Source: Gudongella sp. (GTDB lineage Bacteria; Bacillota; Clostridia; Tissierellales; Tissierellaceae). Taken from it: a DNA stretch of 33,130 bases. This document shows positions 4,783 to 24,745 of this stretch, one piece after another. Within the stretch, counting starts at the first letter, position 1, and each line of letters starts with the position of its first letter. A model generated the notes under the pieces. The model was not told the origin of the DNA. It searched no databases and saw only the letters and a program-made list of their open reading frames with translations. The translations under genes were made by a program, and so were the position numbers. Location: assembly GCA_024649995.1 (NCBI GenBank), contig JANKMX010000023.1:1-33130 (forward strand), written 5' to 3'.

Positions 4783-4790
4783 AGCTTTTA

Positions 4791-4799
4791 TGCTATAAT
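4791..4799 (+). promoter_or_regulatory. Extended -10 promoter before the Nudix gene
   Basis: TGCTATAAT (TGnTATAAT) lies 8 bases after the recN stop with no good -35 at 16-18 bases. Initiation would fall near 4806, giving a leader of about 37 bases before ATG 4843. It could start a sub-operon reading the Nudix, XerD and deoA genes. Confidence 0.6.
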
Positions 4800-4842
4800 A
4801 TTTGTATAAAAAGGACCAGCAATAATAATTAGGGGGATCTGT

Positions 4843-6301: not shown

Positions 6302-7603
6302 ATGAGAGCAGTTGATATAATTGAAAAGAAAAAGCATGGAGAACATTTAAGCAGGGAAGAAATTGACTTTATGGTCCAGGGATACACCAGGGATGAAATT
6401 CCTGATTATCAGATGTCAGCTTTCCTGATGACAATATACTTCAATGGAATGGGCAAGGATGAAATTGCCCACTTGACTGAAAGCTTTGTCAATTCAGGGG
6501 AACAGGTTGATCTTTCTCCGATAGAGGGAATCAAGGTTGACAAGCATTCAACAGGTGGAGTGGGAGACAAGATCAGTCTGATTGTCATACCCCTTGTTGC
6601 AAGTGCTGGAGTACCTGTTGCCAAGATGAGCGGAAGGGGCCTAGGCCACACAGGAGGAACCATTGACAAGCTTGAATCAATAGAGGGATTCAGGATTGAA
6701 CTGTCATCAAAGGAATTCATAGACAATGTGAACAGGCATAAGATGGCCATAGTTGGTCAAACTGCAAACCTTACACCTGCTGACAAGAAAATCTATGCCC
6801 TGAGGGATGTCACCTCCACAATTGACAGTATCCCACTGATCGCCAGCTCCATCATGAGCAAGAAGATAGCCTCTGGTGCAGATGCCATTGTTCTTGATGT
6901 CAAGGTTGGGTCTGGAGCATTTATGAAGACCATCAAGGAAGCAGAGAAGCTTGCAGAAACAATGGTTGGAATAGGAAAGAGTCTCAATAGAGATACGGTT
7001 GCAGTTATTACCAACATGGATCAACCCCTTGGAAACCAGGTTGGAAACAGCAATGAGGTGAAGGAGGCTATCAAAGTCCTTTCAGGCCATGGAGCAGAGG
7101 ATGAAACAACCATTGCCCTGACAATAGCCTCTCATATGTGTGTTCTTGGTGGAGCCTTTGGGGATTTCGATTCTGCTTACTCAAAGCTTCAGGAGACAAT
7201 TAAATCCGGAAAGGCCATTAAAAAGCTCAAGGAGCTCATATCCATCCAGGGGGGAAATCCTGAGGTTGTTGAAAATACTGATCTCTTGCCTGGAGCTAGG
7301 AATTCCATTGACATAAAATCGGAAAAGGATGGATTTGTCTACCAAATAGATGCAGAGAGCGTTGGAATAAGTGCCATGCTCCTTGGAGCAGGAAGAAGAA
7401 CCAAGGAGGATAAGATCGACTATGGTGCAGGAATAACACTCAGGAAGAAAATAGGGGATACAGTCAAGAAGGGTGAGGTTCTCTATACACTTATGACAAA
7501 TCTTGACGATTACCAGGATGCAGTTGAAAGAATGAAGGAAGCTTATGTGATTTCCAATGAAAAACCGGAGACAAAACCTTACATTTATAATATAATAAAA
7601 TAG
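6302..7603 (+). CDS. pdp: Pyrimidine-nucleoside phosphorylase
   Basis: The enzyme splits thymidine, deoxyuridine or uridine with phosphate into base and (deoxy)ribose 1-phosphate, feeding nucleoside salvage. It is 433 residues, the normal length. The N-terminal helical domain begins MRAVDIIEKK; the phosphate-binding motif KHSTGGVGDK is near 81-90 and the hallmark SGRGLGHTGGTIDKLE near 109-124; a C-terminal alpha/beta domain ends the protein. AGGAGG lies eight bases before ATG 6302 and only 11 bases separate it from xerD. The Clostridia usually place it in an xerD-deoB-punA-pdp run; deoB and punA are not here. Thymidine-only (deoA) and broad pyrimidine specificity are hard to separate by eye; the Gram-positive context favours pdp. 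Confidence 0.94.
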   Translation: MRAVDIIEKKKHGEHLSREEIDFMVQGYTRDEIPDYQMSAFLMTIYFNGMGKDEIAHLTESFVNSGEQVDLSPIEGIKVDKHSTGGVGDKISLIVIPLVASAGVPVAKMSGRGLGHTGGTIDKLESIEGFRIELSSKEFIDNVNRHKMAIVGQTANLTPADKKIYALRDVTSTIDSIPLIASSIMSKKIASGADAIVLDVKVGSGAFMKTIKEAEKLAETMVGIGKSLNRDTVAVITNMDQPLGNQVGNSNEVKEAIKVLSGHGAEDETTIALTIASHMCVLGGAFGDFDSAYSKLQETIKSGKAIKKLKELISIQGGNPEVVENTDLLPGARNSIDIKSEKDGFVYQIDAESVGISAMLLGAGRRTKEDKIDYGAGITLRKKIGDTVKKGEVLYTLMTNLDDYQDAVERMKEAYVISNEKPETKPYIYNIIK

Positions 7604-7616
7604 TGAGAATATGATG

Positions 7617-7645
7617 CCTCGACAATTCATGGTCGGGGTTCATTA
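7617..7645 (+). terminator. Weak terminator-like hairpin after pdp
   Basis: CCTCGAC (7617-7623) pairs with GTCGGGG (7632-7638), including one G-T pair, over an 8-base loop, then TTCATTATT. The T tract is interrupted, so termination would be partial at best. Confidence 0.35.
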
Positions 7646-7701
7646 TTATGGTTTGGAAGTTATAGTCAATGAATACTTGATATTGAAAGCAGAGGTAGTA
7701 T

Positions 7702-11329: not shown

Positions 11330-12714
11330 AAATTATGGAAACAGCTTTAAGGGATGCACATCAGTCACTAATTGCCACTAGAATGAGTACGGAGGATATG
11401 ATTCCCATAGCTGAAAAGATGGATAAGGTTGGATATCATGCTATGGAGGTATGGGGAGGAGCTACGTTTGACTCATGCCTGAGGTTTTTAAATGAGGATC
11501 CATGGGAGAGATTGAGAGCCCTTAGAAAGGCATTCAAGAACACCAAGCTTCAGATGCTCCTAAGGGGACAGAACATTTTGGGATACAAGCATTATCCCGA
11601 TGATGTTGTTGAAGAGTTTGTAAAGAAGGCAATAGAGAACGGAATAGATATTGTCAGGATATTTGATGCCCTGAATGATCTGAGGAATCTGGAGACGTCC
11701 ATCAAGGCTGTCAAGAAGTACGGTGGACATGCTCAGGGAGCAATATCCTACACAGTGAGTCCGGTTCACAACAACGAGTACTATGTCAACCTTGCAAAGG
11801 ATATGGTCCAAATGGGCGTGGATTCAATCTGCATCAAGGATATGTCAGGCATACTTCTTCCATATGTTGCCTATGACCTTGTGAAGGACCTTAAATCGGC
11901 CGTGGATGTGCCAATAGAGGTTCACTCACACTTTACCAGTGGTATAGCAAACCAGACCTATCTTAAGGCAATAGAGGCGGGAGCGGATATTGTTGACACT
12001 GCAATTTCACCTCTTGGAAATGGTACAAGTCAGCCTGCCACAGAGCCTATGATAGCATCTCTGGAGGGAACTGAGTACTATCCTGATATTGACTTTGATT
12101 TGCTTCTTGAGGTATCTGAGTATTTCAAAGGTCTGAGGGACAAATACATGAAGGCTGGTCTTCTAGATACAAAGGTGCTTAATGTGGATGTGAATACCCT
12201 GAAATACCAGGTTCCAGGAGGCATGCTGTCCAACCTTGTGTCCCAGCTTAAGGCACAGGGAAAGGAGGACCTGTACGATGATGTCCTCAAGGAGATTCCA
12301 AGAGTTCGGGAGGAACTGGGATATCCTCCATTGGTAACCCCAATGAGTCAGATGGTGGGTACCACAGCGCTTTTCAATGTAATAACTGGAGAAAGGTACA
12401 AAATGGTTCCTACAGAGACCAAGAACTATGTAAAGGGACTTTACGGAAGACCGCCTGCACCAATCTCGGATGAGATAAGGAAAAAGATAATTGGGGATGA
12501 CCAGGTGTTTGAAGGCAGACCTGCCGATATGCTGGAGCCACAGCTTGACAACTACAGAAAAGAAATCAGTGAATATATTGAACAGGATGAGGATGTACTT
12601 AGCTATGCCCTGTTCCCACAGGTTGCAATTCCATTCTTTAAGCAAAGGCTTGCAGCCAAGTACAAAATAGAAACAGATTTGCTGGATCAGGAAAACCAGA
12701 CACATCCAGTCTAG
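11317..12714 (+). CDS. oadA: Biotin-dependent carboxyltransferase subunit (oxaloacetate decarboxylase alpha / PycB type), no biotin domain
   Basis: This is a carboxyltransferase TIM barrel that moves CO2 between biotin and a 2-oxo acid such as oxaloacetate or pyruvate. The 465-residue protein has RDAHQS at 12-17, QMLLRGQN near 79-86, the carboxylated lysine Lys174 in IKDMSG, and metal ligands His203 and His205 in EVHSHF; the conserved PYC_OADA domain fills the C-terminal part. It ends without the AMKM biotin-carrier domain, so a separate biotin protein is required and none is encoded in this window. It overlaps mnmM by 13 bases and ends a long operon at the terminator that follows. Methylmalonyl-CoA carboxyltransferase 5S and oxaloacetate decarboxylase alpha are both possible; the substrate is not decided. 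Confidence 0.88.
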   Translation: MPKVKIMETALRDAHQSLIATRMSTEDMIPIAEKMDKVGYHAMEVWGGATFDSCLRFLNEDPWERLRALRKAFKNTKLQMLLRGQNILGYKHYPDDVVEEFVKKAIENGIDIVRIFDALNDLRNLETSIKAVKKYGGHAQGAISYTVSPVHNNEYYVNLAKDMVQMGVDSICIKDMSGILLPYVAYDLVKDLKSAVDVPIEVHSHFTSGIANQTYLKAIEAGADIVDTAISPLGNGTSQPATEPMIASLEGTEYYPDIDFDLLLEVSEYFKGLRDKYMKAGLLDTKVLNVDVNTLKYQVPGGMLSNLVSQLKAQGKEDLYDDVLKEIPRVREELGYPPLVTPMSQMVGTTALFNVITGERYKMVPTETKNYVKGLYGRPPAPISDEIRKKIIGDDQVFEGRPADMLEPQLDNYRKEISEYIEQDEDVLSYALFPQVAIPFFKQRLAAKYKIETDLLDQENQTHPV

Positions 12715-12740
12715 GAAATGAGTTGGAAATGGATATGGTG

Positions 12741-12768
12741 AAAAACAAGCCTCAGGGCTTGTTTTTTT
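12741..12768 (+). terminator. Intrinsic terminator after oadA
   Basis: ACAAGCC (12745-12751) pairs perfectly with GGCTTGT (12756-12762) around a 4-base loop, extended by A runs on the left and T (12762-12768) on the right. It closes the long run of genes from tlyA onward. Confidence 0.9.
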
Positions 12769-12881
12769 GCTCAAATATGATTGAATCTGTAAATAATTTT
12801 CTTGATCAATGTCCATATATTCAATCGTTTGAAAGCAAACTTGCAAAAACCTATTAAAATGGGTAAATTATGAAATAAATC

Positions 12882-12983: not shown

Positions 12984-13184
12984 ATGCCAGATAAGAAGGA
13001 AAAAATTGTTACCGTTGAGAAGGAATGGTGCAAGGGCTGTGGCATTTGCGTAGCATATTGTCCAAAGAGCGTTCTTGCTTTGCAGGATGGTAAGGTAGAG
13101 ATTGTGGATCTTGAAGCGTGCATACAGTGTGGTCAATGTGAATTGCGTTGTCCTGATTATGCAATTTACTTAAGGGAGGAATAA
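12984..13184 (+). CDS. korD: 2-oxoacid:ferredoxin oxidoreductase delta subunit (2[4Fe-4S] ferredoxin)
   Basis: This small subunit carries electrons from the TPP centre of the oxidoreductase to an external ferredoxin. The 66-residue protein has two CxxCxxCxxxC clusters, Cys16/19/22/26 and Cys46/49/52/56, in the typical bacterial ferredoxin arrangement. The start is ATG 12984, with AGGAGG at 12971-12976; the in-frame GTG at 12954 lies inside the second operator copy and has no ribosome site. It is the first gene of korDABC, two bases before korA. Confidence 0.93.
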   Translation: MPDKKEKIVTVEKEWCKGCGICVAYCPKSVLALQDGKVEIVDLEACIQCGQCELRCPDYAIYLREE

Positions 13185-13186
13185 AG

Positions 13187-15681: not shown

Positions 15682-16548
15682 ATGGTATCAAATCAGAATG
15701 TAATCAAGAATATCCAGGACAATTATTCAAGACTCAGCAAGGGTCAGAAAATAATTGCCGAGTATATGATAAATCAATATGATAAGGCAGCGTTCATGAC
15801 CGCTGCCAATCTCGGTAGGAATTTGAACATAAGTGAGTCAACGGTTGTAAGGTTTGCAAATGCCCTTGGATATTCAGGCTACAAGGAGTTGCAGCGAGAG
15901 CTACAAGAGTTGATAAGAAACAAGCTTACTACTGTTCAAAGGCTAAATCTTTCTGAGGATTATTCAAAAAACGAGCATTCAATTGCCAAGGTAATGGAAA
16001 AGGATGTTGAAAATCTTAGAAAAACCTTGTCTGAGGTTGATTTCGAAAAGTTTTACAATGCGGTGGAAATGACCCTAAAGGCAAAAAACATATATATTAT
16101 GGGATTGAGGAGCTCATCCTTTCTTTCAGGGTATATGGCTTTTTACATGAATTTCATATTCGATAACATTAAGCTTGTGCAACCAGGTGCAAATGACATA
16201 TTCGAGCAGCTTACAAAGGCAACCAAGGAAGACATAATAATATGTCTCACATATCCAAGGTATTCCAAGAGGACATTGGAGGCACTTTATTATACCAAAG
16301 GCAAGGGCTGCAGAATAGTGAGTTTCACAGACAGCCTTATTTCACCAGCATCTGACAAATCAGACATAACAATCATTGCCAGAAGTGACATGCTGTCCTT
16401 TGTGGATTCACTTGTGGCACCAATGAGCCTGATCAACGCCTTTATCATAGCTCTTGGAAGTGAGAAGAAGGAGGACATAACTCCATACTTTGAGGAATTG
16501 GAGCAGGTTTGGAAGAAGTACAGCATCTATGATGAGAACAGTCTGTAG
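15682..16548 (+). CDS. RpiR/MurR-family transcriptional regulator
   Basis: RpiR-family proteins join an N-terminal helix-turn-helix domain to a SIS sugar-phosphate-binding domain and usually repress carbohydrate genes. In this 288-residue protein the HTH covers about 36-62 (TAANLGRNLNISESTVVRFA, key residues Ser51-Thr54-Val55-Arg57) and the SIS domain about 110-255. The gene lies 15 bases after korC, before a strong terminator, so it appears to belong to the kor operon. This pairing with an energy-metabolism operon is less usual than sugar loci. The ligand is not known. The ribosome site is modest (AAAGG ten bases before ATG). Confidence 0.88.
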   Translation: MVSNQNVIKNIQDNYSRLSKGQKIIAEYMINQYDKAAFMTAANLGRNLNISESTVVRFANALGYSGYKELQRELQELIRNKLTTVQRLNLSEDYSKNEHSIAKVMEKDVENLRKTLSEVDFEKFYNAVEMTLKAKNIYIMGLRSSSFLSGYMAFYMNFIFDNIKLVQPGANDIFEQLTKATKEDIIICLTYPRYSKRTLEALYYTKGKGCRIVSFTDSLISPASDKSDITIIARSDMLSFVDSLVAPMSLINAFIIALGSEKKEDITPYFEELEQVWKKYSIYDENSL

Positions 16549-16571
16549 GAAATTATTTATAGCAGCTTGAG

Positions 16572-16602
16572 TCCGTTGTGGTAAAACGCAGCGGATTTTT
16601 TT
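16572..16602 (+). terminator. Intrinsic terminator of the kor operon
   Basis: TCCGTTGTG (16572-16580) pairs with CGCAGCGGA (16587-16595), two G-T pairs included, over a 6-base loop, followed by seven T. Confidence 0.88.
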
Positions 16603-16716
16603 ATGTAATATATATAAGGGAAGTTAAATATCATAGTAAATAATATCATAAATGATAAGAAAATCTACTACGTTTGTGTTATTATTCATATAGGGCAGAT
16701 TTGAGGAGAGGATTAA

Positions 16717-17937
16717 ATGAAATCAAGAGTTGGAGTTATAGGTGGAGGACCTGCAGGAATTATGGCAGCGGGAGAAGCCTCAAAAAGAGGGCATGATGTT
16801 GTATTGTTGGAGAAGAATAATCAGTTGGGAAAGAAGCTGTTTATCACCGGCAAGGGGAGATGTAACATTACAAATGCGGCACCAATCGAGGAATTTTTTG
16901 ACAATATTGTAACAAACAAAAATTTTCTCTACAGTAGCTTATATACGTTCGACAACAATGGGATCATAGATCTCTTGAACAAATACGGTTTAAGTACAAA
17001 GGTGGAAAGGGGTAACAGGGTTTTTCCTGAAAGCGATAAATCAAGTGATGTAATTAAGGCCTTTAAAAGATACCTGGCTCAGTGGGGTGTTGACATAAGG
17101 CTTAATTCTGATGTTTCCCACATCAAATACGATGGAGAGAGCTTCACAGTGTATTTGAGGGACGGGAATGAGCATCAGTTTGACAAACTCATCCTGACAA
17201 CTGGAGGGAAAAGCTATCCTGCAACTGGATCCACAGGAGATGGGTATTCATTTGCCAAGTCATTGGGGCATACAGTCACTGACCTGAGACCCAGTCTCGT
17301 TCCCATTGAACTGAATGATGAATGGGTTAAGGATCTCATGGGTTTATCACTTAGAAATGTGGCCTTGACCGCATATAAAGGGAAAAAGGAGGTCCACAGT
17401 GAATTTGGGGAGATGGTGTTTACCCACTATGGAATTTCAGGGCCTATTGTCCTCTCCATGAGCAACTATGTGAACAGCATTAAGTCAAACCTTGCCCTGA
17501 CATTGGATCTAAAGCCTGCATTGGATGTTGAGAAGCTGGATGCTCGAATTGTACGGGATTTCAACCAATTTAGCAACAAACAGTTGAAAAATGCCTTGAA
17601 TGATCTTTTACCACAAAGACTTATACCATGGATCATAGAGGCCTCCGGAATATACCCGGATAAGGTTGTGCACCAGATCACCAAAGATGAAAGGGAGAGC
17701 CTTGTGCATTCACTTAAGAACTTCTCTCTTCATTTTAAAGGCTTCAGACCATTAGAGGAAGGGATTGTAACATCAGGAGGAATAAACGTAAAGGAGATAA
17801 ATCCATCAACAATGGAGTCAAAAATTATACCAGGGCTATTCTTCGCAGGTGAGATAATTGATGTGGATGCACTTACAGGAGGATATAATCTCCAAATAGC
17901 CTATTCAACCGGATATTTGGCCGGAATAAATGTATAA
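16717..17937 (+). CDS. NAD(P)/FAD-dependent oxidoreductase, HI0933/YhiN family
   Basis: This flavoprotein belongs to the HI0933-like (BaiN/YhiN) family, whose physiological reaction is mostly unknown. The 406-residue protein has the N-terminal dinucleotide loop GGGPAG (9-14) followed by Glu at the ribose position, the family motif ITGKGRCN near 48-55, a middle TTGGKSYPATGSTGDGY region and the C-terminal FAD-binding GGYNLQIAYSTGYLAG. GAGGAGAGG precedes ATG 16717. In Clostridia this gene commonly lies just before cmk, as here. BaiN in gut Clostridia acts in bile acid dehydroxylation, but the name should not be carried over without support. Confidence 0.9.
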   Translation: MKSRVGVIGGGPAGIMAAGEASKRGHDVVLLEKNNQLGKKLFITGKGRCNITNAAPIEEFFDNIVTNKNFLYSSLYTFDNNGIIDLLNKYGLSTKVERGNRVFPESDKSSDVIKAFKRYLAQWGVDIRLNSDVSHIKYDGESFTVYLRDGNEHQFDKLILTTGGKSYPATGSTGDGYSFAKSLGHTVTDLRPSLVPIELNDEWVKDLMGLSLRNVALTAYKGKKEVHSEFGEMVFTHYGISGPIVLSMSNYVNSIKSNLALTLDLKPALDVEKLDARIVRDFNQFSNKQLKNALNDLLPQRLIPWIIEASGIYPDKVVHQITKDERESLVHSLKNFSLHFKGFRPLEEGIVTSGGINVKEINPSTMESKIIPGLFFAGEIIDVDALTGGYNLQIAYSTGYLAGINV

Positions 17938-17942
17938 ATTGC

Positions 17943-17971
17943 TTGTTTATGTTACGTGTTTATTATATAAT
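17943..17971 (+). promoter_or_regulatory. Promoter of the cmk leader
   Basis: TTGTTT (17943-17948), 17 bases, then a perfect TATAAT (17966-17971) put the start of transcription near 17978, six bases after the flavoprotein stop to the -35. Its RNA would run through about 255 bases of leader to a terminator placed directly before cmk. Confidence 0.65.
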
Positions 17972-17977
17972 TATATA

Positions 17978-18203
17978 GGAGAGTTTGTTAACCTGTAGTA
18001 TTATAAGAGGGCTATTACTGTAGATATGAATCCATTGTTTCTAAACTATGGATCAAGAGGAAGATTGAAGACGGAAACCATCTAAAATAGATAAGGTTAT
18101 CAGCATGATTTTTTCTGCTACAATACATCCGGACCGAGCCTACTTTTGGGATTCATTTCCAGGGGATGTCAATAGTCTTTGGCCTGAAACACTACTGTAT
18201 GCA
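17978..18203 (+). ncRNA. Candidate structured leader RNA of cmk (unknown class)
   Basis: This stretch lies between a promoter and an intrinsic terminator and has no gene I can support. A helix TAACCT (17989-17994) with AGGTTA (18094-18099) closes a 111-nt domain holding three hairpins: GTAGTA 17995-18000 with TATTAC 18013-18018; ATCCAT 18030-18035 with ATGGAT 18048-18053; ATCTA 18080-18084 with TAGAT 18088-18092. A second domain is closed by ACATCC (18125-18130) and GGATGT (18164-18169). The layout, promoter, folded leader, terminator, ribosome site and gene, is that of a transcription attenuator or riboswitch, or of a small RNA ahead of cmk. It matches no riboswitch consensus I know. Helices were found by eye. 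Confidence 0.5.
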
Positions 18204-18232
18204 AACCACCAATGGGTGGTTATTCTTTTTTT
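18204..18232 (+). terminator. Terminator/attenuator immediately before cmk
   Basis: AACCACC (18204-18210) pairs perfectly with GGTGGTT (18215-18221) over AATG, followed by ATTC and seven T (18226-18232). The cmk ribosome site begins two bases further on. So most transcripts from the leader promoter should stop here unless the hairpin is prevented. Confidence 0.8.
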
Positions 18233-18233
18233 C

Positions 18234-18239
18234 GGAGGG
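18234..18239 (+). promoter_or_regulatory. Ribosome binding site fixing the cmk start
   Basis: GGAGGG lies six bases before ATG 18246. The frame is open upstream to 18105, but only 18246 gives a normal cytidylate kinase N terminus. Confidence 0.85.
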
Positions 18240-18245
18240 CAGATT

Positions 18246-18908
18246 ATGACCAGAAGTTATTCAGTTGCAATAGATGGGCCTGCTGGAGCCGGAAAGAGCA
18301 CAGTAGCAAAAATTGTAGCAAATAAATTAAATTTTGAATACATCGATACAGGTGCCATGTACAGGGCTTACACCCTTAAGGTACTACAAAACAATCTCGA
18401 TCCAAAGAATCAGGATGAGGTAAATTCTCTTCTTGATTCCACTGATATAGGTTTTACCAATAATCATATCTATCTTGATGACAGGCTGGTGGATGATGAG
18501 ATCAGGGATAACCGCATTAGCGATAATGTCTCTTACATTGCAAGCAGCAAGAAGGTACGGGAGAGAATGGTGTCGCTTCAACAGGAAATGGCATCAAGAA
18601 AATCAGTGGTAATGGATGGCCGGGATATAACAACTGTAGTTCTGCCAAATGCAGATTTCAAGTTTTATGTAACGGCTTCGGTTGAGGAAAGAGGTAGAAG
18701 AAGGTATCTGGAATTGCTTAACAAGGGTGTTGAAAATATCACTCTAGATGGAATCATTGAGGACATCCGAAAACGTGATAAGATTGACAGCACCAGAGAA
18801 GAATCGCCTCTTACCAGGACTGAGGATTCAATCCTCGTGGACACAACCGATCTCAGCATTGAAGAAACTGTTGACCTAATTATCAACCTTGTAAAGGGGG
18901 GAAAATAG
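18246..18908 (+). CDS. cmk: Cytidylate kinase
   Basis: Cmk phosphorylates CMP and dCMP with ATP, feeding CDP/dCDP pools for RNA, DNA and phospholipid (CDP-alcohol) synthesis. The 220-residue protein starts with the usual Ser-Val-Ala-Ile-Asp strand and Walker A GPAGAGKS (11-18), then DTGAMYRA, the CMP-binding DGRDITTVVLP and the RRRYLEL and RDKIDSTREESPL lid/catalytic region, all conserved. The in-frame extension back to 18105 (47 residues) is rejected because it lacks a ribosome site and homology. The gene is preceded by a terminator-bearing leader and followed after two bases by plsC. Confidence 0.96.
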   Translation: MTRSYSVAIDGPAGAGKSTVAKIVANKLNFEYIDTGAMYRAYTLKVLQNNLDPKNQDEVNSLLDSTDIGFTNNHIYLDDRLVDDEIRDNRISDNVSYIASSKKVRERMVSLQQEMASRKSVVMDGRDITTVVLPNADFKFYVTASVEERGRRRYLELLNKGVENITLDGIIEDIRKRDKIDSTREESPLTRTEDSILVDTTDLSIEETVDLIINLVKGGK

Positions 18909-19492: not shown

Positions 19493-21484
19493 TTGGAGAT
19501 TATATTGGCTGAAAACGCAGGATTCTGTTTCGGTGTTGACAGAGCAGTCAAAATGACTGAGGATGAACTGTCACAAAGCGACAGCAGGGTTTACTCCTAC
19601 GGGCCGTTGATTCACAATCCACAGGCTGTCAAGGCTCTTGAAGATAAAGGACTAAAGACAGTTGATGGTTTTGGGGATATAAGTGACGGAAGAATAATAG
19701 TAAGGTCTCATGGCGTACCCCAAAATATAATCAATGAGATTGAAGAGTCAGGCTTGCACCTTGTCGACTGCACATGTCCCTATGTAAAGGCTGTCCATAG
19801 GAAGGTCCAGGAATATAATTCAAATGGCTACAGTATTGTTATCATAGGGGATAGGAAGCATCCAGAAGTGATTGGTATAAATGGCTGGTGTGGAAACAGT
19901 GCATTTATCATAAATGACCTGGATGAGGCCAAGGAGCTGCCGGATATGGAAAAGGCCTGCGTTGTGTCACAAACCACAAACAGACTTGATAAATTTCTGG
20001 AACTCAGCAGGATTGTTGAGGAAAAATCAAAAGAGACTATTCTCTTCAACACAATCTGCAATGCTACGAAGCTTAGACAGGAAGCTGCTGAGAAAGTGGC
20101 AAAAAAGGTCGATGCAATGATTGTTATTGGTGGAAAACACAGCTCCAATACGATTAAATTGGCCGAAATAAGCAGTAGACACTGCAAAAATGTGTTTCAT
20201 ATAGAAACTATTGAAGAATTAGCTTTACAAAGGCTACAAAATTTTAATACAATAGGAATAACCGCAGGTGCTTCAACACCTGATTGGATAATTAAGGAGG
20301 CTGTTAAGGTAATGGAGAATTATAACAAAGATGAAATGATGGAAGCGATTGAGAGTTCCTTTAAAAGGATCAACAGAGGTGACGTTCTTAAGGGAACAGT
20401 GCTTTATGTAACAAACAACGAAGTAATGGTAAACATCAACTACAAAAGTGATGGAATAATCGACAAAAGCGAGATTTCCAAAGAGCAGGATGCAGATCCA
20501 AAGGAACTGTTCAAAGTAGGAGATGAAATTGACGTATATGTAATGAAGCTTGATGACGGTGAAGGCAATGTTGTACTTTCAGCAAAAAGAGTTGACTTCA
20601 TTAAAGACTGGGAAGTACTTGAAGAGTCCTATAAAAATGAAGAAATTCTAGAGGTTAAAGTTCTTAATGCAGTTAAGGGAGGACTTACAGTACTTGTCAA
20701 TGGTGTAAATGGATTTATGCCTGCATCACAAATTTCAATGAACTACGTATCAGACCTAAACCAGTTCAAGGGACAAACACTTAATGCAAAAATAATAGAT
20801 TTTGATATTCAAAAAAGAAGAATGATCCTTTCAAGAAAAGCTGTTGAAAAGGTAGAGGTAGAGAAGCAGAGAGCTGAGCTTTGGGAGACAATTGAAGAAG
20901 GAAAAATGCTTACAGGAGTTGTACAAAGACTTACTGATTTCGGTGCATTTGTTGACCTTGGAGGAATTGACGGTCTAATTCACATATCAGATCTTGCATG
21001 GTTCAGGGTAAAGCATCCTTCAGAGGTGTTGAAGGAAGGCGACAATGTTGAAGTTAAGGTTCTTGCCTTTGACAAGGAAAAGAACAGGATTTCACTTGGT
21101 CTTAAGCAAACCACGGAAGAGCCTTGGGAGGTATTCCTTAAGGAATACAAGGTTGGAGACATCATAGATGGAGAGGTTGTCAACATTCTTGACTTTGGAG
21201 CATTTGTAAGGGTTATTAAGGGTGTGGATGGACTTCTACACGTTTCACAAATTTCTAAGGATCATGTTGAGAAGCCTTCAGACGTCCTAAAGGTAGGCGA
21301 TAAGGTAACTGTTAAGATTACTGAGATCAATGAAGCTGACAAGAAAATCAGCCTAAGCGCAAAGGATGCAGTTGAGTCTGATGAACCAGCTGAAGAGGTA
21401 CCTGCTGTTGAGGAAGAAGCTGAAGAGGCTTATGAACAATCTGATTTCAATACAAGCGTTGAAGAGCTAACAAAAGAAGACTAA
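19493..21484 (+). CDS. ispH: Fusion of 4-hydroxy-3-methylbut-2-enyl diphosphate reductase and ribosomal-protein-S1-like domains
   Basis: The N-terminal 280 residues are IspH (LytB), the last enzyme of the MEP isoprenoid pathway, reducing HMBPP to IPP and DMAPP. Its [4Fe-4S] ligands Cys12, Cys95 and Cys189, His41, His73, His123 and Glu125 are present. The C-terminal part holds four S1 RNA-binding repeats at about 295-367, 383-451, 469-539 and 554-627, then an acidic tail. The last two show the standard DFGAFV core, the first two are more divergent. Start is TTG 19493 with GGGAGG upstream. This gene fusion is known in Clostridia; whether the two parts are functionally linked is unknown. It ends at a strong terminator. 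Together with ispA it shows a MEP-type isoprenoid route. Confidence 0.95.
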   Translation: MEIILAENAGFCFGVDRAVKMTEDELSQSDSRVYSYGPLIHNPQAVKALEDKGLKTVDGFGDISDGRIIVRSHGVPQNIINEIEESGLHLVDCTCPYVKAVHRKVQEYNSNGYSIVIIGDRKHPEVIGINGWCGNSAFIINDLDEAKELPDMEKACVVSQTTNRLDKFLELSRIVEEKSKETILFNTICNATKLRQEAAEKVAKKVDAMIVIGGKHSSNTIKLAEISSRHCKNVFHIETIEELALQRLQNFNTIGITAGASTPDWIIKEAVKVMENYNKDEMMEAIESSFKRINRGDVLKGTVLYVTNNEVMVNINYKSDGIIDKSEISKEQDADPKELFKVGDEIDVYVMKLDDGEGNVVLSAKRVDFIKDWEVLEESYKNEEILEVKVLNAVKGGLTVLVNGVNGFMPASQISMNYVSDLNQFKGQTLNAKIIDFDIQKRRMILSRKAVEKVEVEKQRAELWETIEEGKMLTGVVQRLTDFGAFVDLGGIDGLIHISDLAWFRVKHPSEVLKEGDNVEVKVLAFDKEKNRISLGLKQTTEEPWEVFLKEYKVGDIIDGEVVNILDFGAFVRVIKGVDGLLHVSQISKDHVEKPSDVLKVGDKVTVKITEINEADKKISLSAKDAVESDEPAEEVPAVEEEAEEAYEQSDFNTSVEELTKED

Positions 21485-21505
21485 TATCAAAAATTGAAGA
21501 GACTA

Positions 21506-21537
21506 AATGGGTTAAATTTAATTTAACCCATTTTTTT
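21506..21537 (+). terminator. Intrinsic terminator after ispH-rpsA
   Basis: AATGGGTTAAAT (21506-21517) pairs perfectly with ATTTAACCCATT (21521-21532) around TTA and runs into T 21531-21537. The A run on the left makes it possibly two-way. Confidence 0.92.
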
Positions 21538-21562
21538 GAATAAAATACGGGGAGGTTAATCC

Positions 21563-23628: not shown

Positions 23629-24621
23629 ATGGGTTTTAATGTTGAACTACTGGAAAAGTTGGTGTCCGTATACGGACCTTCAGGGGATGAATCCTTGATT
23701 AGCGCAACAATTCGCAAGGAGATTAGTGAGTATGTGGATGAAATAACCACTGACTCTCTTGGAAATCTAATAGCAAGGAAAAAGGGTGAAGGCAAGAAAA
23801 TTATGGTTTCTGCCCACATGGATCAGATAGGTTTTATCATTACTGACATTGATAAGGAAGGATTCTTGAGATTTGGTAATGTGGGTGGAATATCTCCCGA
23901 TATCAGCCTAAGCCAGAGGGTTGTTTTCAAGAATGGTACCGTGGGAGCCATTTTTTCAGAACCAATGGAAAAATCATCCGAAAGAAAGCTTGAGAACATG
24001 TATATAGACATTGGAGCGAAGGACAAGGAAGAAGCGGAAAAAATGGTTGCCATAGGAGACATGTGCATCTACTACAGCTCCTTTGCCCATAACGATAATG
24101 TTGTATTCACACCATATCTGGACGATAGGGTTGGGTGTTTCGTTGCCATTGAGGCCCTTAAGAGACTTTCCAATACTGATAATGACCTGTATTTTGTCTT
24201 CTCCGTTCAGGAGGAGGTTGGACTTAGGGGAGCAAGGACAGCAGCTTATGGCATAGAACCTGATTTCGGAATCGCTGTTGATGTCACTGCCCATGGGGAT
24301 ACTCCCAAGGCAAAGAGGTTTGCAGTGGGTCTACACAAGGGAGTGGCAATCAAGGTTAAGGACAACTCAATCATAACTCATCCTTCAGTGAGGAATTCAT
24401 TGATAGATATCGCCAAGGCTGAGAATATTACCTATCAGCTGGAGGTACTTGAATTTGGAGGAACGGACTCAGGTGCAATACACCTGACAAAAACAGGAGT
24501 GCCTTCAGGAGTGATTTCAATTCCAACAAGGTATGTTCACTCAACGGTTGAAATGGCATCAAAAGATGATATTGAAAGCAGCATAGCACTTTTGGAAGGA
24601 TATCTATCCAAAAAGCAATAA
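23629..24621 (+). CDS. M42 family metallo-aminopeptidase, paralog 3
   Basis: Third tandem M42 peptidase, 330 residues, starting at the base after the stop of paralog 2 with GGGGG in its last codons. Metal-site motifs are complete: His63 in SAHMDQ (Gln replaces the usual Glu after Asp), the DDRVGC motif, QEEVGLRGA, AVDVTAHGD and RYVHST. The Gln after Asp66 is a small change near the first metal site. A terminator is not obvious after it; the miaB promoter comes 77 bases later. Confidence 0.92.
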   Translation: MGFNVELLEKLVSVYGPSGDESLISATIRKEISEYVDEITTDSLGNLIARKKGEGKKIMVSAHMDQIGFIITDIDKEGFLRFGNVGGISPDISLSQRVVFKNGTVGAIFSEPMEKSSERKLENMYIDIGAKDKEEAEKMVAIGDMCIYYSSFAHNDNVVFTPYLDDRVGCFVAIEALKRLSNTDNDLYFVFSVQEEVGLRGARTAAYGIEPDFGIAVDVTAHGDTPKAKRFAVGLHKGVAIKVKDNSIITHPSVRNSLIDIAKAENITYQLEVLEFGGTDSGAIHLTKTGVPSGVISIPTRYVHSTVEMASKDDIESSIALLEGYLSKKQ

Positions 24622-24697
24622 TGTTTGGAACAATAAAAGTCTGTTCTGGAAGTCGGTGGGTATAACTACTTTCAGCAGGCTTTTTATTGCGAAAATG

Positions 24698-24706
24698 TGT
24701 TATAAT
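24698..24706 (+). promoter_or_regulatory. Extended -10 promoter of miaB
   Basis: TGTTATAAT (TGnTATAAT) ends 39 bases before the miaB ATG. No clear -35 is present. Initiation near 24713 is predicted and would drive miaB-mutS-mutL-miaA-hfq. Confidence 0.6.
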
Positions 24707-24731
24707 TTAGCTGTAGCAATTAGTGGTAGGC

Positions 24732-24737
24732 AAGGAG
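24732..24737 (+). promoter_or_regulatory. Ribosome binding site fixing the miaB start
   Basis: AAGGAG stands eight bases before ATG 24746. The in-frame upstream codon at 24656 lies before the promoter and would add 30 residues with no family match. Confidence 0.85.
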
Positions 24738-24745
24738 AAGAGAAA

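Follow-up and report, generated by a model that had tools for sequence, protein, structure and literature searches.

In the 33,130-nt window of Gudongella sp. DNA that was analysed, the stretch between an FAD oxidoreductase gene and the cytidylate kinase gene cmk (positions 17943-18245) is, with high probability, a dead aroH (chorismate mutase) gene flanked by its own promoter and by the intrinsic terminator that parted aroH from cmk. Homology, lesions in common, missing pathway genes and conserved promoter and terminator sequences show, at the level of sequence, that it is an aroH relic. This decayed protein gene had escaped the sequence-only reading, which took the leader for a candidate novel class of riboswitch or attenuator. 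The leader is ordinary in origin: a decayed aroH between a seemingly live promoter and a seemingly live terminator.

The window genome (G000) was compared with its nearest relative (G001) and two other members of the genus (G002 and G003), making four genus members, and with a family survey of 28 genomes searched with the profiles PF07736, PF01817 and PF01264. The features of the leader and its flanking genes are listed in Table 1. Elsewhere, the window encodes an OLE RNA (RF01071, 476.5 bits; 836-1440) that closely follows the first gene and precedes a 207-aa frame; it matches its G001 counterpart at 96% identity (581/604). The alignment also showed a short frame at 12984-13186 that is well conserved and has ferredoxin-like cysteines; it lies between oadA and the gene that follows, and is too short for the cut-off of the ORF list.

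Table 1. Features of the cmk leader and the genes on either side of it
Feature	Position	Strand	Basis or remark
HI0933-like FAD-dependent oxidoreductase (preceding gene)	16717..17937	+	PF03486, E 2.4e-87
Promoter TTGTTT-17 nt-TATAAT of the aroH-cmk unit	17943-17971	+	sequence
Former aroH ribosome site and spacer (AGGAGAGTTTGT)	17977..17988	+	identical in 4/4 genus members
aroH (chorismate mutase) relic	17989..18195	+	DNA alignment to G002 and G003; tblastn of intact AroH
Local hairpin ATCCAT/ATGGAT	18030..18053	+	present in the G000 fold and in the G001 fold
Best conserved block	18090..18126	+	36/37 identical to G001
Second domain, helix 18125-18130/18164-18169	18125..18169	+	G001 has a compensatory change and a wobble change
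Intrinsic terminator	18204-18232	+	stem 18204-18221, T-rich tail to 18232; carried over from the junction of aroH and cmk
cmk ribosome binding site GGAGGG	18234-18239	+	sequence
cmk, cytidylate kinase	18246..18908	+	PF02224, E 9.7e-74; ATG at 18246

In many relatives the space between the FAD oxidoreductase gene and cmk is occupied by an open reading frame that encodes an AroH-type chorismate mutase (PF07736); the HI0933-like oxidoreductase gene is likewise the immediate upstream neighbour in family leaders. Of the 28 family genomes, 16 have PF07736, and in every one of these the coordinates place its gene on the cmk strand, at a distance of 24-81 nt from the cmk match. The G002 protein, encoded by such a frame, matches PF07736 with an E value of 1.9e-42; its best-scoring solved relative is 1xho. 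Profile searches of G000 and G001 found neither PF07736 nor PF01817 (the other chorismate mutase family) nor PF01264 (chorismate synthase). Across the family, PF01817 occurs in eight of 28 genomes, never together with PF07736, and four of 28 have neither mutase type, including G007, which is only 55% complete. Chorismate synthase is absent from four of 28 genomes (G000, G001, G008 and G009); G009 keeps an AroQ-type (PF01817) protein without it, and thus the correlation with pathway loss is not perfect. G000 and G001 each encode one PF00275 protein, presumably MurA; PF00275 alone cannot separate AroA from MurA. PF01761 was dropped as a pathway marker because it was found in none of six genomes, pathway-positive ones included. 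The missing mutases and chorismate synthase fit a loss of aromatic amino-acid synthesis in G000 and G001.

One family member, G005, encodes AroH and Cmk in a single open frame of 346 codons from TTG, with no stop between them (L136:1123-2160); PF07736 matches residues 4-118 and PF02224 residues 131-340. This frame may encode a natural fusion of chorismate mutase with CMP kinase; it was observed in a single genome.

In a DNA search of 60 relatives, convincing matches to the leader were confined to the genus: 82% identity to G001 over the whole length, and partial matches of 72-73% to G002 and G003. The codon that follows AGGAGAGTTTGT is ATG in G002 and G003, TAA in G000 and GGA in G001. Relative to G002 and G003, the relic has lost its start codon, carries small indels in its first codons and a 10-nt deletion near 18029, lacks a base near codon 38, and is missing most of its second half through a large deletion after about 18146; its 3' piece (about 18147-18199) can be aligned only loosely. 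These lesions lie at the same places in G000 and G001, so aroH most likely died before the split of these two species. No AroH frame exists in either leader. A tblastn search of intact AroH against the window hit DKVISMIFSATIHPDRAY at 18090-18143 and, in another frame, a stretch at 18058-18114 (weak, E 0.004), and an AroH protein search of the window's own genome gave nothing at E 1. The relic case rests on the DNA alignment and on position. Like the intact aroH of G002 and G003 (PF07736, type I), the relic sits before cmk, and its promoter, ribosome site and N-terminal half align to theirs, but without an open frame or start codon, and with its large deletion, it cannot make the enzyme.

Changes between G000 and G001 fall about equally on the former codon positions 1, 2 and 3 (7/49, 8/52 and 8/52), which indicates that the relic evolves as non-coding sequence; the functional pair in G002 and G003 differs at 14/57, 6/57 and 28/57. 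A conserved leader peptide was ruled out by a by-eye reading of the alignments, in which the short frames of G000 are lost in G001. A distant blastn search of the leader against a plasmid collection gave two short matches, attributable to chance only.

Several elements named by the sequence-only reading were borne out: a good promoter directly after the preceding gene, just past its stop codon, a terminator before cmk, and a cmk ribosome site two bases beyond it. CTTGTTTA and ATTATATAATTA of the promoter are kept in all four genus members, the last base of the second block being no exception. This promoter was missing from the promoter scan because the scan rule demands four of six matches in the first hexamer. 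A minus-strand promoter at 17991-17962 was rejected, its first hexamer being lost in G001 according to the alignment.

Terminator-like sites number eight in a 4-kb stretch, compared with 2.5 in shuffles. A GC hairpin with a T-rich tail precedes cmk in 13 of the 16 intact aroH-cmk loci (G005, G010 and G012 are without it). Judged by its sequence, the terminator predates the loss of aroH and is the old aroH-cmk terminator. Among relatives that lack aroH and have a readable leader, G016 and G022 have a promoter and a terminator separated by next to nothing, a similar hairpin precedes cmk in G023, and the remainder have a plain short spacer. Since the hairpin occurs in intact aroH loci and in some aroH-less leaders, the terminator most likely trims the expression of cmk and of its downstream genes, whether or not aroH is there. 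RNA polymerase would start near 17978 and make an RNA of roughly 255 nt that is presumably no longer translated; transcription would mostly stop at the terminator near 18232, and the read-through fraction would express cmk, plsC and ispH-S1, presumably likewise in relatives with an intact aroH. The earlier proposal that a putative RNA ends at this terminator, with some transcription continuing into cmk, holds up. Two further complementarities were seen, either of which may be due to chance: TTTGTAT in the aroH start region of G002 and G003 can pair with ATACAAA just before the terminator, and TTGT/GCAA (17984-17988 versus 18200-18204) remains pairable in G000 and G001.

Decay at a neutral rate is typical of a pseudogene, though not strictly defining, and it was not found here. 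The relic body differs between G000 and G001 at 36 of 208 sites, whereas 1120 of 2027 fourfold sites differ in 20 neighbouring genes (Fisher p 6e-27) and 22 of 48 in the nearest codons flanking the relic (11/26 and 11/22; Fisher p 8e-5). A plain pseudogene would be expected to have diverged far more. With gaps counted, identity of the relic and leader is about 0.79-0.80, compared with 0.45-0.54 in four other long syntenic spacers (7601-7698, 0.475; 12712-12806, 0.453; 24619-24742, 0.479; L195 4531-4780, 0.541). This baseline is small (13 stretches including the leader, with those that overlap genes or the OLE region, or whose flank identity of at most 40% makes orthology doubtful, dropped), and three short spacers match or approach the relic in conservation: 21482-21562 (0.80), C56 21089-21168 (0.86) and, nearly so, 4783-4842 (0.71). 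The stretch 16546-16788 reaches 0.70 but takes in coding sequence. The relic decays too slowly for dead DNA and may therefore later have gained a role as RNA or DNA; the comparison, of two sequences only, suggests constraint.

One such role would come from exaptation: the roughly 200 nt left after the death of aroH would have been retained as a working RNA, be it a small RNA that ends at the terminator or a structured leader that adjusts how much transcription continues into cmk. Exaptation extends the aroH-relic reading rather than opposing it, and we regard it as a real possibility, though one that more probably does not apply. A version in which deletions reshaped the remnant into a structured leader or small RNA under purifying selection, setting cmk output or acting elsewhere, is offered a shade more tentatively still. 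Bacterial small RNAs reportedly do arise by exaptation (Jose, Gardner and Barquist are said to have treated this in 2019), and the relic would resemble them as a probably transcribed remnant with a possible RNA role.

Slow decay and high spacer identity favour exaptation, and so do several structural results. RNAalifold on G000 and G001 gave a consensus that none of 200 column shuffles equalled (two of 200 without the terminator), with z values of -3.6 and -2.4, respectively, compared with -5.8 for the OLE RNA, a known structured RNA in the same window; these shuffles ignore dinucleotides. Three helices of at least 6 bp with double changes are common to G000 and G001, against 0.6 expected (six of 300 shuffles reach three), although the covariation tests were chosen after looking at the data. 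A second domain closed by 6 bp was proposed from the sequence; its helix ACATCC/GGATGT is perfect in G000 and is kept in G001 through one double (compensatory) and one wobble change, which is suggestive in a comparison of two sequences. The larger 111-nt domain stood only in part, as its closing helix (TAACCT 17989-17994/AGGTTA 18094-18099) is perfect in G000 but broken in G001, where GGAACT lies opposite AGGTTA. Against exaptation, the relic is carried by two sequences only, most aroH-less relatives have just a short spacer, predicted pairs common to G000 and G001 are nearly all invariant, and the single-sequence fold of G000 is ordinary (z -1.15, or -0.43 without the terminator; about -2.1 in G001). 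The whole-region fold is no better than chance (z = -0.84; 25 of 100 shuffles fold as well). A predicted invariant 7-bp helix in G000 and G001 (18171-18177/18218-18224) overlaps the 3' arm of the terminator.

Two other explanations are improbable. The conserved core at 18090-18126 could be a second promoter born inside the relic: a TTATCA-16-TGCTACAAT-like site (TTATCA-16-TACAAT with TG, 18097-18124) lies in this block. However, 16 such sites occur in 4 kb where 11 are expected, the block is mostly aroH coding sequence that is also found in G003, and the terminator still lies downstream. The relic could also look young only through recombination, a short stretch having been exchanged between the two lineages, and fourfold sites do differ somewhat less often in cmk (36/82) than in the gene before it (69/117). 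This is equally unlikely, because the nearest codons on both sides have diverged and the exchanged tract would have to end at the relic borders.

Transcription attenuators and riboswitch leaders consist of a promoter, a leader, an intrinsic terminator and then the gene; the leader here is gene debris, and no conserved antiterminator or ligand domain was found in it. A novel metabolite riboswitch or attenuator whose 111-nt three-hairpin domain controls cmk would suit the terminator directly before cmk and the slow decay, but it is very unlikely: the leader derives from aroH coding sequence, the helix that closes the main domain is broken in G001, the number of perfect 6-bp helices in 17943-18245 does not exceed chance (12, where shuffles average 14.9 and 363 of 500 have at least 12), the rival pairing of GGTT with AACC proposed in the sequence-only reading is 4 bp only, and the Rfam search of the leader gave no match at the gathering threshold and only chance-level matches at a loose one. 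6S RNA was separately ruled out; RF00013 has no match in the window, and 6S lies elsewhere in all four genus genomes (on contig C72 in G000).

Literature searches found no paper describing an aroH-cmk unit or a cmk leader RNA. PMC1173090 describes aroF-cmk-rpsA linkage groups, in which an aromatic-pathway gene is followed by cmk, lytB (ispH) and a gene with an S1 domain. The arrangement here is alike, with an aromatic gene ahead of cmk, ispH and an S1-domain gene, but the gene is aroH rather than aroF or aroQ-pheA, and aroH of Bacillus sits in another operon (PMC1173090).

The aroH relic indicates that a clean picture of promoter, folded leader, terminator and gene can be what a dead upstream gene leaves behind, and so can mislead the search for riboswitches. 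Within one family, aroH occurs intact, as a wreck or not at all. If the slow decay reflects real selection, the family would document how an enzyme gene became a bacterial regulatory RNA, with both the earlier and the later state on view.
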